DNA of 32,837 bases, from assembly GCA_028291615.1 (NCBI GenBank), contig JAQGHM010000392.1:1-32837 (forward strand), given 5' to 3'. Positions 6,352 to 31,661 of this stretch are shown here, piece after piece (within the stretch, counting starts at the first letter, position 1; the number at the start of each line of letters is the position of its first letter). The position numbers and the translations under genes are program-made. The DNA comes from Phycisphaerales bacterium. GTDB lineage: Bacteria; Planctomycetota; Phycisphaerae; Tepidisphaerales; Tepidisphaeraceae. A model generated the notes under the pieces. The model was given only the letters and a program-made list of their open reading frames with translations, was not told the origin of the DNA and made no database searches.

Positions 6352-7278
6352 ATGCGTCGAATCGTCTTCGTTCTAAGCATTGCCCTCGTCGGCCTCGTCG
6401 GCCTCGTCGGCCTCGTCGGCCTTGCCGCCGCTCCGGCCGTCGAGGCGCCGCCACAGCAGCAGCAGGTCGATCGTTGGTCCACGCTTCCCGCCAAGCCGCA
6501 ACCGCTGCTGGTTCATAAGACGTTTCGTTCAAAATCCATGGATGCGGAGGTGGGGTACAACCTTTACCTGCCGCCCGGTTACGACGCTGACGCGGCGACT
6601 CGTTACCCCGTGCTTTACTGGCTTCATGGGATGAACCAGTCGGAGTCCACGGATCAATATCCGATTCGCTACCTCGACGACGCGATCAAGGCGAAAGCCG
6701 TTAAGCCGATGATCGTCGTTTACGCTTCGGGCGGGCAGCGGACTTATTACACGGACAATCCGGGCATCCATTGCATGCCGGAGACTTCGATTATCGAGGA
6801 GTTGATTCCGCTGATCGACGCGACCTGTCGCACTAGTGCGGTTCGCGAGCAGCGTGCGATCGCGGGGATGTCGATGGGCGGATTTGGATCGCTCAAGTTC
6901 GCGTTCAAGCACCCGGAATTGTTTTCTTCTGTGACGGCGTTTGCGCCGGGGATTCGCGATCAGGAATCGTTTGCGAAGGATCGGCCTGACATCCTGCTGC
7001 GGATGTTTGGGAATGATGCGAAGAACTATGCGGCGAACCACCCCGCGACGTGGTTGAAGACGAATTTGAAGGAGATCAAGGGGAAATTGCCGGTGTCGCT
7101 GTATGTGGGAACGAAGGATTATCTGCTGGCGGGGTCACGGTCGCTTCATCAGATGATGACGGAGATGGGGGTCGAGCATGCTTATCAGGAGTTTGAGGGG
7201 GTTACGCATAATCTTTCGCAGTATTCTGCGCAGACGAAGGCTGTCCCGTTTGTTTTTGCGGCGGAGCATTTTCGATGA
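6352..7278 (+). CDS. Secreted esterase D/feruloyl-esterase-like alpha/beta hydrolase
   Basis: 308 residues; AGGA 7 nt before ATG 6352 supports the start. The signal peptide (1-27) contains four perfect 9-bp DNA repeats that give LVG triplets. The mature enzyme belongs to the esterase D (PF00756) group: VGYNLYLPPGYD, then YPVLYWLHG, then the nucleophile elbow GMSMGG with Ser174. Asp256 (GTKDYLL) and His286 (GVTHNLSQY) are good candidates for the rest of the catalytic triad. Family members hydrolyse acyl or feruloyl esters on carbohydrates, or act as S-formylglutathione hydrolases; export favours a carbohydrate ester substrate, matching the polysaccharide theme. The gene stands alone between hicA and the convergent pilin-like operon. 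Confidence 0.85.
   Translation: MRRIVFVLSIALVGLVGLVGLVGLAAAPAVEAPPQQQQVDRWSTLPAKPQPLLVHKTFRSKSMDAEVGYNLYLPPGYDADAATRYPVLYWLHGMNQSESTDQYPIRYLDDAIKAKAVKPMIVVYASGGQRTYYTDNPGIHCMPETSIIEELIPLIDATCRTSAVREQRAIAGMSMGGFGSLKFAFKHPELFSSVTAFAPGIRDQESFAKDRPDILLRMFGNDAKNYAANHPATWLKTNLKEIKGKLPVSLYVGTKDYLLAGSRSLHQMMTEMGVEHAYQEFEGVTHNLSQYSAQTKAVPFVFAAEHFR
6385..6420 (+). repeat. Four tandem 9-bp units inside the signal peptide
   Basis: CTCGTCGGC is repeated four times without a mismatch, immediately followed by a degenerate fifth (CTTGCCGCC). Each unit encodes Leu-Val-Gly and the array forms the hydrophobic core of the esterase signal peptide. Gain or loss of a unit keeps the frame and only changes hydrophobic length by three residues. 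Confidence 0.9.
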
Positions 7279-7292
7279 GGGGGTGGGACGCT

Positions 7293-7306
7293 CTGGGCAA
7301 GCCCAG
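7293..7306. terminator. Hairpin between convergent genes
   Basis: CTGGGC-AA-GCCCAG is a perfect 6-bp inverted repeat in the 44-bp gap between the convergent esterase and GspK-like genes. Its place suits a bidirectional terminator, but the loop is very short and no real T-tract follows on either strand (only TAAAA to the right), so the call is weak. Confidence 0.3.
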
Positions 7307-7322
7307 CGGCTAAAAGGTGAGG

Positions 7323-7646
7323 TTATTCCTGAAGCGTTCGGGCGCGGCCGTATTGCGCTTCGATTGCGACGTGCTTTGCACGGATCGTTACCTTTAGCTT
7401 AGCGCCGGCTTCGACGAGTTCCTCGGGGAGGGGGATGTTTTGGTCAACGTCGCCGGTCTGTTGCGCGGCGATCTGGAGGCCGACCAGCACGAGTTGCTCG
7501 ACTTGGGCCTGCTCGCGGGCGGCGGTTGCCTGGCGGGCGGCGGTGCCGAGGCGCGTGGTCAGGGCGGCCAGGGCGACGGCGACCAGCGCGATCATCATGA
7601 CGGCCAGCGTCGTTACGAACGCGGGGCGGGTAGTTTTTCGCTTCAT
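7323..7646 (-). CDS. Small GspK/PilX-like minor pseudopilin candidate
   Basis: 107 residues from ATG 7646, which overlaps the upstream stop by 4 nt (ATGA); an in-frame ATG at 7763 exists, but the coupled start is far better. A short basic leader (MKRKTTRP) precedes a hydrophobic helix (AFVTTLAVMMIALVAVALAA) without the usual Glu at mature position 5, as in GspK and PilX. The rest (TRLGTAARQATAAREQAQVEQ) continues as an amphipathic helix followed by a short strand region. True GspK proteins are about 300 residues, so this is only the pilin-like head. As last gene of the operon after I-like and J-like genes, it takes the K position. The family call rests on position and hydrophobic pattern. Confidence 0.55.
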   Translation of the reverse strand: MKRKTTRPAFVTTLAVMMIALVAVALAALTTRLGTAARQATAAREQAQVEQLVLVGLQIAAQQTGDVDQNIPLPEELVEAGAKLKVTIRAKHVAIEAQYGRARTLQE

Positions 7647-29538: not shown

Positions 29539-29754
29539 TCAGCAATAAACGTCGTAGCAGATCGGATAGAGAATCAAATCCGGCCGCACCAAGTGCAGCT
29601 TACGAAGGCGAACTTCGTAACGGTTGGCGTAGGCATCCATGTCCGGGGAGGTCGTCGGCGTCCGTGCTGACGTGGGGGCGGGCGGGATCATCCCGGCCGA
29701 CAAGAGCATCGCAATTGCGAATGCCCGCGAGAGAAAACGGATCCCGCGTTTCAT
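29539..29754 (-). CDS. Small secreted protein with conserved-looking aromatic tail
   Basis: 71 residues from ATG 29754, with AAGGTG about 7 nt upstream and a promoter candidate about 70 nt away. N-terminus: MKRGIRFLSRAFAIAMLLSAG, a signal peptide or membrane anchor ending near residue 34 (PTSARTP). The mature part is only about 35 residues: a polar linker, then YEVRLRKLHLVRPDLILYPI and CYDVYC, basic and then aromatic with two Cys near the end. I do not know its function; a secreted peptide that disulfide-bonds or joins a surface complex is a guess. Having a promoter, ribosome site and signal peptide together makes it likely to be real despite its size. Confidence 0.65.
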   Translation of the reverse strand: MKRGIRFLSRAFAIAMLLSAGMIPPAPTSARTPTTSPDMDAYANRYEVRLRKLHLVRPDLILYPICYDVYC

Positions 29755-29820
29755 GATGGACACCTTTGGCTGGCGAGGCCGAAAACAGCCGCAAAACCGC
29801 GGCCGCGTGTTGTGTGCTTC

Positions 29821-29849
29821 AGACTACCCCGCTTCGGCCCCCACGCCAA
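29821..29849 (-). promoter_or_regulatory. Promoter candidate for the 71-residue secreted protein
   Basis: Minus strand: TTGGCG (29849-29844), a 17-bp spacer, TAGTCT (29826-29821), which matches the TTGnCn / TAGnnT style seen at other genes here. The leader would be about 60 nt, with a ribosome site AAGGTG before the ATG. Confidence 0.45.
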
Positions 29850-29938
29850 TAAAGAAATTTTCAAGTAACAGCGCCACCCTGCCGATAGGTGGTAGTTTTG
29901 GCAAGATCGATGGGTCGCATCACCCCGCGGATCGGCCG

Positions 29939-30544
29939 TCAGGCATTGCGGAATGCGGTATCGGTCGTCCCATGTGCCCCATCAGACGGCGGATGTCCGT
30001 TCTCCGGCTGAGCCGCCTTACCCGCCGCCACCCCGCTAACCAAACCTCCCAGGATCGGCCCCAGGTTCTTCATCGCCTCGCGAATAATAGTCCCAAGTAT
30101 CGATGGGCTCTGCGCTTGTGGCGGAGGCGGAGCGTCGGTTCCGACGGTGGCCGTCGCCGTGGCAGGCGGGGTCATCTTCTCCTTGAACGCCTCCCACTTC
30201 TCCTCGAAATAGTCCTTGAACGACTCGTTCTTGGACGGCATCACCAGCATTCCAGCGACAAATCCCGCCACGGTCGCCGTACCCGCCATAATTAAGGGGT
30301 GCTGCCGCGTCCACTCGCGCAGGTCCGCTCCCTGGGCCACGGCATGCTTCATGTCCGCCAGCACCGCCGAGATTGCCGCCTTCGCCTGATCCTGCTCCCG
30401 CGTCAGGAAATCGGCCTCGGTGGGCGGCTTATCGCCGACCGGCGGCTTCTCGCCGCTCTGCCGCTGCGGTTGCTGCGGCTTCGGCTGCCCGCTTGGAGAC
30501 GTCGTGGCCGAAGCGTTCACGTTGGGATTGTTTTCGCTGTTCAT
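29939..30544 (-). CDS. Proline-rich membrane-anchored protein, third gene of a yqjDE-like operon
   Basis: 201 residues if translation starts at ATG 30544 (AAGAAG just before, weak). The N-terminal 45 residues are Pro/Gln/Ser-rich, then TREQDQAKAAISAVLADMKH is an amphipathic helix, RQHPLIMAGTATVAGFVAGM (about 81-100) a membrane segment, followed by a charged helix and a second hydrophobic stretch (about 149-175, LGPILGGLVSGVAAGKA). It is not a family I can name; it takes the place of yqjK or DUF3618-type partners. The start lies inside the preceding gene, giving a 116-nt overlap in a different frame. A later start would remove the low-complexity part and shorten the overlap, so the true N-terminus is uncertain. 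Confidence 0.65.
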   Translation of the reverse strand: MNSENNPNVNASATTSPSGQPKPQQPQRQSGEKPPVGDKPPTEADFLTREQDQAKAAISAVLADMKHAVAQGADLREWTRQHPLIMAGTATVAGFVAGMLVMPSKNESFKDYFEEKWEAFKEKMTPPATATATVGTDAPPPPQAQSPSILGTIIREAMKNLGPILGGLVSGVAAGKAAQPENGHPPSDGAHGTTDTAFRNA

Positions 30545-31019
30545 ACTTCTTCAAGGTTTGAGATCGCCACGTGTTCGTCAGCTTGTTCATCATCATCCAG
30601 GCCCCGACGCCGACCGCGCCCAGGACCACAAGCCCCGCCACGATATCCCCCAGCCAATACCGGTCGCCAAACAACCGCCCCAGCCCCTCGGCCAGCCCGA
30701 CGATCAGCAACCCCGCCGCCGTCGCCACGATCGCCCCGCCGGCGATCAGTCCCACCACGCCCAGCGCCGCGTAAAGTCCGATATTACGAACCGTCCGCTT
30801 AACGCCATCCACCTTCGCCGCGACGTAATAACCGGCATATTCCTTCAGCTCATTGATGTCCCCCTTGATCCGCTGGAACGCCTCGGCCGCCGGGTTTCGG
30901 GCATCGTCTTCCGATGCCCCCGCACCCGTCGGCGCGACGTGCGGCGCCGGATGCTCCCGCCCCCCCGGCGGCGGGGGAGGAGTCGTCGTCGACGACGTCT
31001 TGTACATTTTGGAACTCAT
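30429..31019 (-). CDS. Holin-X/YqjE-like membrane protein
   Basis: 196 residues from ATG 31019 with GGAG 7 nt upstream. After a Pro-rich, disordered N-terminus comes FQRIKGDINELKEYAGYYVA (about 49-68), then two membrane segments: GLYAALGVVGLIAGGAIVAT and following (80-113), and IVAGLVVLGAVGVGAWMMM (126-144). A basic, Ala-rich cytoplasmic tail follows (KRAAEAAATAAAERREAAGR). The layout is that of the Phage_holin_3_6/holin-X family, to which E. coli YqjE belongs. The preceding gene is a DUF883 protein as in yqjD-yqjE. These are general inner-membrane proteins linked to stress or stationary phase; lysis is not implied. Confidence 0.8.
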   Translation of the reverse strand: MSSKMYKTSSTTTPPPPPGGREHPAPHVAPTGAGASEDDARNPAAEAFQRIKGDINELKEYAGYYVAAKVDGVKRTVRNIGLYAALGVVGLIAGGAIVATAAGLLIVGLAEGLGRLFGDRYWLGDIVAGLVVLGAVGVGAWMMMNKLTNTWRSQTLKKYEQRKQSQRERFGHDVSKRAAEAAATAAAERREAAGRR

Positions 31020-31086
31020 TGCGGTGCTCCGGGAAATAAGACCGATCGCCACCGCCACGCGCGCAATCGAGCGGCCACTCTAAATC

Positions 31087-31110
31087 CGCGCGTCGGCCGG
31101 CCGGCGCGTG
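31087..31110. terminator. GC-rich palindrome after the DUF883 gene
   Basis: CGCGCGTCGGCC / GGCCGGCGCGTG is a 12-bp inverted repeat with no loop and 10 of 12 pairs, 6 nt past the DUF883 stop on the minus strand. It could weaken read-through into the holin-X gene, which has its own ribosome site but needs this transcript unless a second promoter exists. No T-tract. Confidence 0.35.
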
Positions 31111-31116
31111 CGCGTG

Positions 31117-31410
31117 TTAGATCCGCTTCCAGATCGCCCCGATAACCGCGCCCACGCCCGCCGCGATCAGCAACGCCTTCACCGGCTGCTCGCGAACGTA
31201 GTTCTCCAGTTGTTCTTCCCACTGCGCAGCCTTCTCGCGGCCGGCCTGGTAATACTCCGTGGCCGACTCTTTCGCCGCCTGATACTGCTCGGTCGCGGTG
31301 TCGCGCACCTGCGAAGCCGTATCGCGAACGCTGTCTACCATTTCGCTGGCCTTGTCCTTAATTTGAGAAGCCATTCCTTCGGGGGTTTTTCCTGCATCGG
31401 CACGAGACAT
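31117..31410 (-). CDS. yqjD: DUF883/YqjD-like C-tail-anchored membrane protein
   Basis: 97 residues from ATG 31410, chosen because AGGAG stands 6 nt upstream; the frame has another ATG at 31431 that lacks one. The body is a long charged coiled-coil-like helix (MASQIKDKASEMVDSVRDTA, with 7-residue repeats of VRDTAxQ type), then the glycine-zipper membrane tail REQPVKALLIAAGVGAVIGA ending in WKRI. This is the layout of E. coli YqjD/ElaB, inner-membrane proteins reported to bind ribosomes in stationary phase. First gene of the operon. A promoter (TTGTGA-18-TAACAT) lies upstream. Confidence 0.88.
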   Translation of the reverse strand: MSRADAGKTPEGMASQIKDKASEMVDSVRDTASQVRDTATEQYQAAKESATEYYQAGREKAAQWEEQLENYVREQPVKALLIAAGVGAVIGAIWKRI

Positions 31411-31472
31411 ATTGTGCTCCTTGTCTTCCATGGCAAGTCTGGGGCAACGCGCCCGTCGCTCACCTCCGCCGC

Positions 31473-31502
31473 ATGTTACGGTCCGCGTCACGCACGTCAC
31501 AA
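31473..31502 (-). promoter_or_regulatory. Promoter candidate of the yqjDE-like operon
   Basis: Minus strand: TTGTGA (31502-31497), 18-bp spacer, TAACAT (31478-31473), four of six matches in each hexamer. It is about 62 nt upstream of the start codon and fits a vegetative sigma factor. Confidence 0.35.
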
Positions 31503-31571
31503 TGGGAAAAATTCGCCGGCTCCACACGTCCGTTCCGCACCATCCCTCCTTGTCTCGCCAGCCCCTCGATC

Positions 31572-31600
31572 TTGTCCCCCATACGGCTCGGCCATACACT
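31572..31600 (+). promoter_or_regulatory. Promoter candidate of the membrane-anchored unknown gene
   Basis: TTGTCC (31572-31577), 17-bp spacer, TACACT (31595-31600), four of six matches in each hexamer. The leader would be about 55 nt and carries GGAGGA 6 nt before the GTG start at 31662. Confidence 0.45.
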
Positions 31601-31661
31601 ATCCCTTCCGGCACGTCGCGCTGTTGGAAAAGAAGGGTCACTTCCGCGCGGAGGAACGCAC

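Follow-up and report, generated by a model that had tools for sequence, protein, structure and literature searches.

A predicted exported micro-peptide of Tepidisphaeraceae with a conserved C-terminal tail that is also encoded in two phage contigs

The window, a stretch of 32,837 nucleotides, is contig 43 of a 6.9-Mb assembly (G000) of a Phycisphaerales bacterium. An open reading frame for a micro-peptide of 71 residues was found on its minus strand, with the ATG read from position 29754, the coding part covering 29754-29542 and the TGA stop codon at 29541-29539. The first-pass annotation had given the outer coordinates and the number of residues exactly, and the strand is minus; a plus-strand reading of 29539-29754 was rejected, since it meets a stop at codon 44. 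The protein sequence of the window copy is MKRGIRFLSRAFAIAMLLSAGMIPPAPTSARTPTTSPDMDAYANRYEVRLRKLHLVRPDLILYPICYDVYC. Ahead of the ATG lies AAAGGTG (29767-29761), the likely ribosome-binding site that had been claimed before. The features of the gene are collected in Table 1.

Table 1. Features of the micro-peptide gene in the window.
Feature	Position	Strand	Basis
Conserved promoter-like site TTGGCG-N17-TAGTCT, with a T-rich stretch upstream	29821..29853	-	Sequence, conservation, matrix
Likely ribosome-binding site AAAGGTG	29761..29767	-	Sequence, 5' of the ATG
ORF of the micro-peptide (predicted exported)	29539..29754	-	Translation; homologues in 21 genomes; pN/pS
Predicted Sec signal, about residues 1-31	29662..29754	-	Hydrophobic core from residue 13 (p 0.02 against shuffles); modelled helix 3-20
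Variable linker, about residues 32-47	29614..29661	-	Alignment A1
Conserved tail, residues 48-71, ending in Cys71	29542..29613	-	Nine residues invariant in 22/22

In a single-sequence search of 150 relatives, the peptide gave matches with E values from 1e-14 to 2.5e-6 in 21 other genomes, all within the same family and each extending through the last residue. A profile search of 397 genomes of the class was positive for 22 of the 26 Tepidisphaeraceae genomes, with one copy each. No credible homologue was found in the other 371 genomes of the class, where four weak matches stop short of the last profile column. Among 392 genomes drawn from the phylum the sole credible match was the window's own copy; weak matches in 10 of 391 genomes all stop before the final profile column and were disregarded. 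A scan of genome contigs with the pattern R[KR]LH[LM]VRPD returned 71 stretches and led to 17 confirmed loci, 16 of them in genomes already positive. The one new locus (L063) comes from a MAG labelled Verrucomicrobiales, and the bacterial copies total 23 (22 family genomes and L063). The peptide family is near-universal in Tepidisphaeraceae and absent from the sampled relatives.

Nearly all genomes examined were metagenome bins. The gene was also found in a single-contig genome of 7.19 Mb (G012), presumably that of the isolate Humisphaera borealis; if it is an isolate, a bench test is possible. Two genomes of one genus (G008 and G024) have the neighbouring operon, and the peptide was found neither there nor elsewhere in them, which argues that it can be lost. 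The contig of G011 stops 751 nt past the neighbour gene, so the negative result for this genome does not show absence. G014 matched neither the peptide nor the neighbour gene. The peptides form an unnamed protein family without a credible match in four libraries (Pfam, NCBIfam, PHROGs and PDB). The few weak library matches each involve one member of 21 and are not credible, the best of them (E 0.0024, an APH(3') model) included. Neither a description of the peptide nor the letters of its tail motif were found in the papers searched.

Alignment A1 revealed a three-part layout with a drifting hydrophobic N-terminal signal, a drifting linker that differs greatly in length and make-up between copies, and a near-frozen C-terminal tail. 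The last 24 residues have the consensus VRLRKLHLVRPDLIPYPIAYEVYC. R51, H54, V56, R57, P58, D59, L60, P64, and C71 are invariant across the 22 host copies, and the C-terminal Cys is invariant in 23/23 bacterial copies. The tail had been described as non-random before, and it is the conserved portion of the family. The two Cys residues counted among its features did not hold up: only the terminal one is common to the family. Cys66 occurs in 1/22 copies and was for this reason rejected as half of a disulfide pair. Cys71 is usually the sole Cys outside the signal (the window copy, L026, L030, L034, and L041 have additional ones), which argues against an intramolecular disulfide as the rule.

At the codon level, purifying selection was shown to act on the protein. 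Over the last 28 codons pN was 0.228 compared to a pS of 0.636, pN was lower than pS in 231 of 231 pairs of host copies, and the mean major-base frequency was 0.56 at third codon positions compared to 0.85 at positions 1 and 2. Because of these pN and pS values and the matches in 21 genomes up to the last residue, the micro-peptide gene was confirmed, at the level of sequence, as real and as more than a chance ORF. The first-pass annotation had suspected a real but overlooked small product and had named a lack of homologues together with a lack of a transcript as what would speak against it. The suspicion is borne out by homologues in 22 of the 26 family genomes, by a tail that is the conserved part and by a conserved promoter. 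The reading of raw sequence can thus reveal genuine genes whose small size keeps them out of the usual family libraries.

The terminal Cys codon (29542-29544 in the window) was found to be TGC in 22/22 host copies, although adjacent third positions vary. In long ORFs of the same loci TGC and TGT occur 528 and 176 times, respectively. The fixation of TGC is modest and possibly due to chance.

The peptide is predicted to be exported through Sec by its N-terminal signal. The hydrophobic core of the window copy begins at residue 13, with a net charge of +4 ahead of it, and only 2% of shuffles were equally hydrophobic. In 18 of the 22 copies the core was more hydrophobic than shuffles at p<=0.06. 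Cleavage of the signal is weakly supported, with strict AxA-like sites in 13/22 copies; the window copy has none by that rule, and its putative site TSA-RT was picked by eye rather than by a predictor. No lipobox with a Cys at the signal end was found in the window copy. A lipobox-like motif occurs in host copy L040 (LSAC), and L037 has IIAC. AlphaFold2, run with 17 sequences, gave a helix from residue 3 to 20 and coil for the remainder (mean pLDDT 64, pTM 0.29). The tail is predicted not to fold alone, so it is most likely a linear ligand.

The promoter TTGGCG-17-TAGTCT that had been proposed for the gene is present at 29849-29821, ends 66 nt upstream of the ATG and is conserved in 17/22 loci. 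Among the 21 other loci, 16 carry a comparable site with the 17-nt spacing, which ends 42-141 nt upstream of the start codon. For the pattern TTNNTTGG-N16-GGGTARNCT the window site was the single match in the 6.9-Mb assembly, even with one mismatch. In a matrix made from the 16 other sites it scored 32.1, compared to 8.0 at the next-best place in the window. Leave-one-out tests placed the own site first in its locus in 17/17 cases, ranks that are partly circular since the consensus described by the matrix had also served to choose the sites. Five loci (L040-L044) had been excluded from the matrix, having no clear 17-spaced site by the rule used; L041 afterwards reached 17.0 at the expected place, unlike the remaining four.

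In a pattern scan of 12 genomes, eight of which have the peptide, the site of the peptide gene was found at 0-1 mismatch in six and at 2 mismatches in G005; that of G001 was not found by the pattern. Seven other sites with 2 mismatches were found in the 12 genomes, compared to six for a reversed control pattern. Six of these seven were read by eye, and each lies before an apparently ordinary gene (acs-, csrA-, and cdaA-like genes and genes for secreted proteins). As 2-mismatch sites also precede ordinary genes, a single-gene regulon or a private regulator is not claimed. The site may be no more than a very good promoter of the general kind.

No gene common to all 22 loci was found among the neighbours. 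In the window, positions 29939-31641 of the minus strand hold an operon-like set of YqjD-like, holin_3_6/DUF7269-like, and DUF883_C-like genes, relatives of which lie 5' of the peptide in 10-11 of the 22 loci. A holin_3_6-like gene with YqjD/DUF883-like partners is located upstream on the same strand in 11/22 loci. Just downstream, a convergent cysteine-desulfurase-like gene was found in seven loci (L031, L032, L033, L035, L041, L042, and L044), the cluster member in L031 being TIGR01977. A CPBP protease cluster occurs at varying distance in 5/22 loci (TIGR03008 in L031). Since L033 has both the holin_3_6-like set upstream and the desulfurase downstream, the two kinds of neighbours may go back to one ancestral order. 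Elsewhere the downstream gene varies by locus and is in many cases convergent; in the window it is a convergent HEAT-repeat gene, and most of the other identities were read by eye from the sequences. Judged from this variation, the peptide has a gene in its own right rather than serving as the leader of a single operon.

In IMG/VR, a scan turned up the tail in two phage contigs (L114 and L115), at different genome positions. Phage contigs that carry the same signal-plus-tail peptide as the hosts are the new observation here. The L115 copy has an 80-aa product with a lipobox-like MYGC and the tail VLRKLHLVRPDLIGYPLDVRTYC, and lies upstream of a gene resembling a large terminase (PHROG 5989, E 0.0012). 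The L114 copy has a 51-aa product in which the signal is followed directly by FKLRKLHLVRPDLIYYPLYVEVYA, and is flanked by genes for a DNA polymerase and an exonuclease (PHROGs 17 and 69). As L114 keeps signal and tail with almost no linker, the tail looks like the functional unit. The stop of the L114 peptide overlaps the start of a run of ORFs of 37, 65, 41, and 31 residues, membrane-protein-like and in one case lipoprotein-like; none of these four tiny ORFs had a PHROGs match of known function. The L114 copy, on the basis of this single contig, ends in Ala in place of Cys. By protein identity the two contigs are distantly related: their tails are 77% identical over 22 residues, their other proteins 23-47%. 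On phage contig L134 (G748) a pyridine-nucleotide disulfide-oxidoreductase-like gene (6482-7558; Pyr_redox_2, E 9e-30) adjoins the DNA polymerase gene that lies 5' of the peptide copy.

Two further pattern scans of IMG/VR gave no third phage copy, the tail not being encoded in 10 of the 12 contigs of one scan and in 3 of the 5 of the other. At least 124 IMG/VR stretches share the terminase with the L115 phage, of which 80 were kept (L144-L223). No tail was found in the sequence examined of 79 further contigs that have a related terminase; for 57 of them this sequence covers 1300 nt or more on the upstream side of the terminase. The 640-aa neighbour protein of the L115 phage had no match in 50,697 named phage records, and neither had the tail. 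Phages of the L115 type represent an undescribed lineage, perhaps of Phycisphaerae. As the phage copies are sporadic and differently placed, they probably represent separate captures from hosts. The copies come from two metagenomic contigs, whose hosts we infer. Relatives of the 778-aa protein of the phages were found, among 150 genomes, in one Tepidisphaeraceae bin (G006, contig 288) and, one weak match included, in three more bins of the class; this fits Tepidisphaeraceae hosts and is not proof of them.

Altogether, we favor a reading, with a probability of roughly 0.35, in which the peptide is a Sec-exported ligand whose tail docks on an envelope protein and which phages captured to occupy or control that target. 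The single-copy Tepidisphaeraceae gene would send its product through Sec by the N-terminal signal, and after cleavage the tail would be an extended ligand, basic and then hydrophobic. It would dock on one conserved envelope protein, in the periplasm or at the inner face of the outer membrane, where the terminal Cys could contribute through a thiol contact, a disulfide or a metal bond. Phages that infect such bacteria would have acquired the gene, at two separate places in their genomes, and would use it on the same target during infection, e.g., by closing a receptor or tuning the envelope. The lipobox-like motifs of L115 and L040 fit retention in the envelope. The copy ending in Ala shows that the Cys is not needed in every copy, and it could compete, without the Cys, with the peptide of the host. 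Against a ligand stand the lack of a neighbour gene common to all loci and the fact that the peptide can be lost (G008 and G024), as well as the weakly supported signal cleavage, the small number of phage contigs (two) and the 79 related contigs in which the tail was not found in the sequence examined. A more far-reaching version is doubtful: in it, an important envelope protein has the frozen 24-residue tail as its ligand, and phages have taken this ligand over on more than one occasion, once as a competitor that lacks the Cys, so as to control the protein during infection. If true, a host peptide was turned into a phage tool. The phage copies offer a handle, as the target of the tail would be worth phage coding space.

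Some of the same evidence can be read differently. The signal might stay uncleaved and hold the tail at the periplasmic face of the inner membrane, as an anchored small subunit that assembles with or tunes a membrane complex. This agrees with the single copy, with the lack of a predicted fold and with the 9/22 copies without a clear cleavage site by the strict rule, whereas the very different linkers and the processing implied by the lipobox-like motifs in L040 and L115 do not fit it well; we consider it possible, if tentative. The tail could also be the product of a RiPP-like or signalling precursor, with the terminal Cys as the modified or linked residue. A conserved C-terminal segment behind an export signal and a Cys invariant in hosts are in agreement with this, as are the cysteine desulfurase directly downstream in 7/22 loci and the CPBP protease cluster in five. 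However, no maturation enzyme common to all loci was found in the sequence around the 22 loci, and one phage copy ends in Ala. Kin-recognition signals usually diversify in sequence, which this tail does not, and a precursor of either kind appears unlikely.

Translation arrest would require that Sec pulls on the signal and that the tail stalls in the ribosome tunnel, thereby setting downstream expression. In its part on the search for such peptides, PMC10987492 names an uORF upstream of secA, secDF or yidC, an N-terminal secretion signal or TM segment, a C-terminal sequence conserved among homologues, and more than 30 residues from the signal to the end of the conserved segment. The micro-peptide shares this anatomy in its N-terminal signal (18/22 copies) and its conserved segment up to the stop. 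The length differs between copies, with more than 30 residues in the host copies, judged by the position of the hydrophobic core, and only about 24 past the signal in phage L114, which is too few. The defining location upstream of sec or yidC was found in 0/22 loci, and downstream genes vary and many are convergent, that of the window included. A cis-acting Sec/YidC arrest role is not supported by the gene order, and we regard it as very improbable. A chance ORF conserved for another reason, such as an RNA element or an overlapping gene, is hinted at by TGC as the terminal Cys codon in all 22 copies. It is contradicted by codon-level conservation, with variable third positions and pN below pS in every pair; Rfam gave no match anywhere in the window, the tail recurs in phages, in other contexts, and the probability left to it is close to nil. 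The ligand captured by phages remains the reading we prefer.

MgrB, SafA, AcrZ, and CydX are small membrane or periplasmic regulators. The micro-peptide resembles them in size, export signal and single copy, whereas here conservation lies in a tail of 24 residues with Cys at its end. With SecM, MifM, ApdA, ApdP, and uA_LPPP (Planctomycetota orders), as far as treated in the relevant part of PMC10987492, it shares an N-terminal signal and a conserved C-terminal segment at or near the stop. It differs from them in not being located upstream of sec or yidC, in a tail without a RAPP- or LPPP-like motif and in having phage copies. According to PMC9586334, Llp of phage T5, a small phage lipoprotein located in the periplasm, blocks the receptor FhuA. 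The proposed likeness to such superinfection-exclusion lipoproteins is one of function: two phage contigs encode a small, predicted exported peptide that may act on a host envelope protein from its predicted location in the periplasm. Unlike Llp, the micro-peptide is mainly a host gene with rare phage copies, only one of which has a lipobox-like motif. By this analogy the phage copies may work like superinfection-exclusion lipoproteins.
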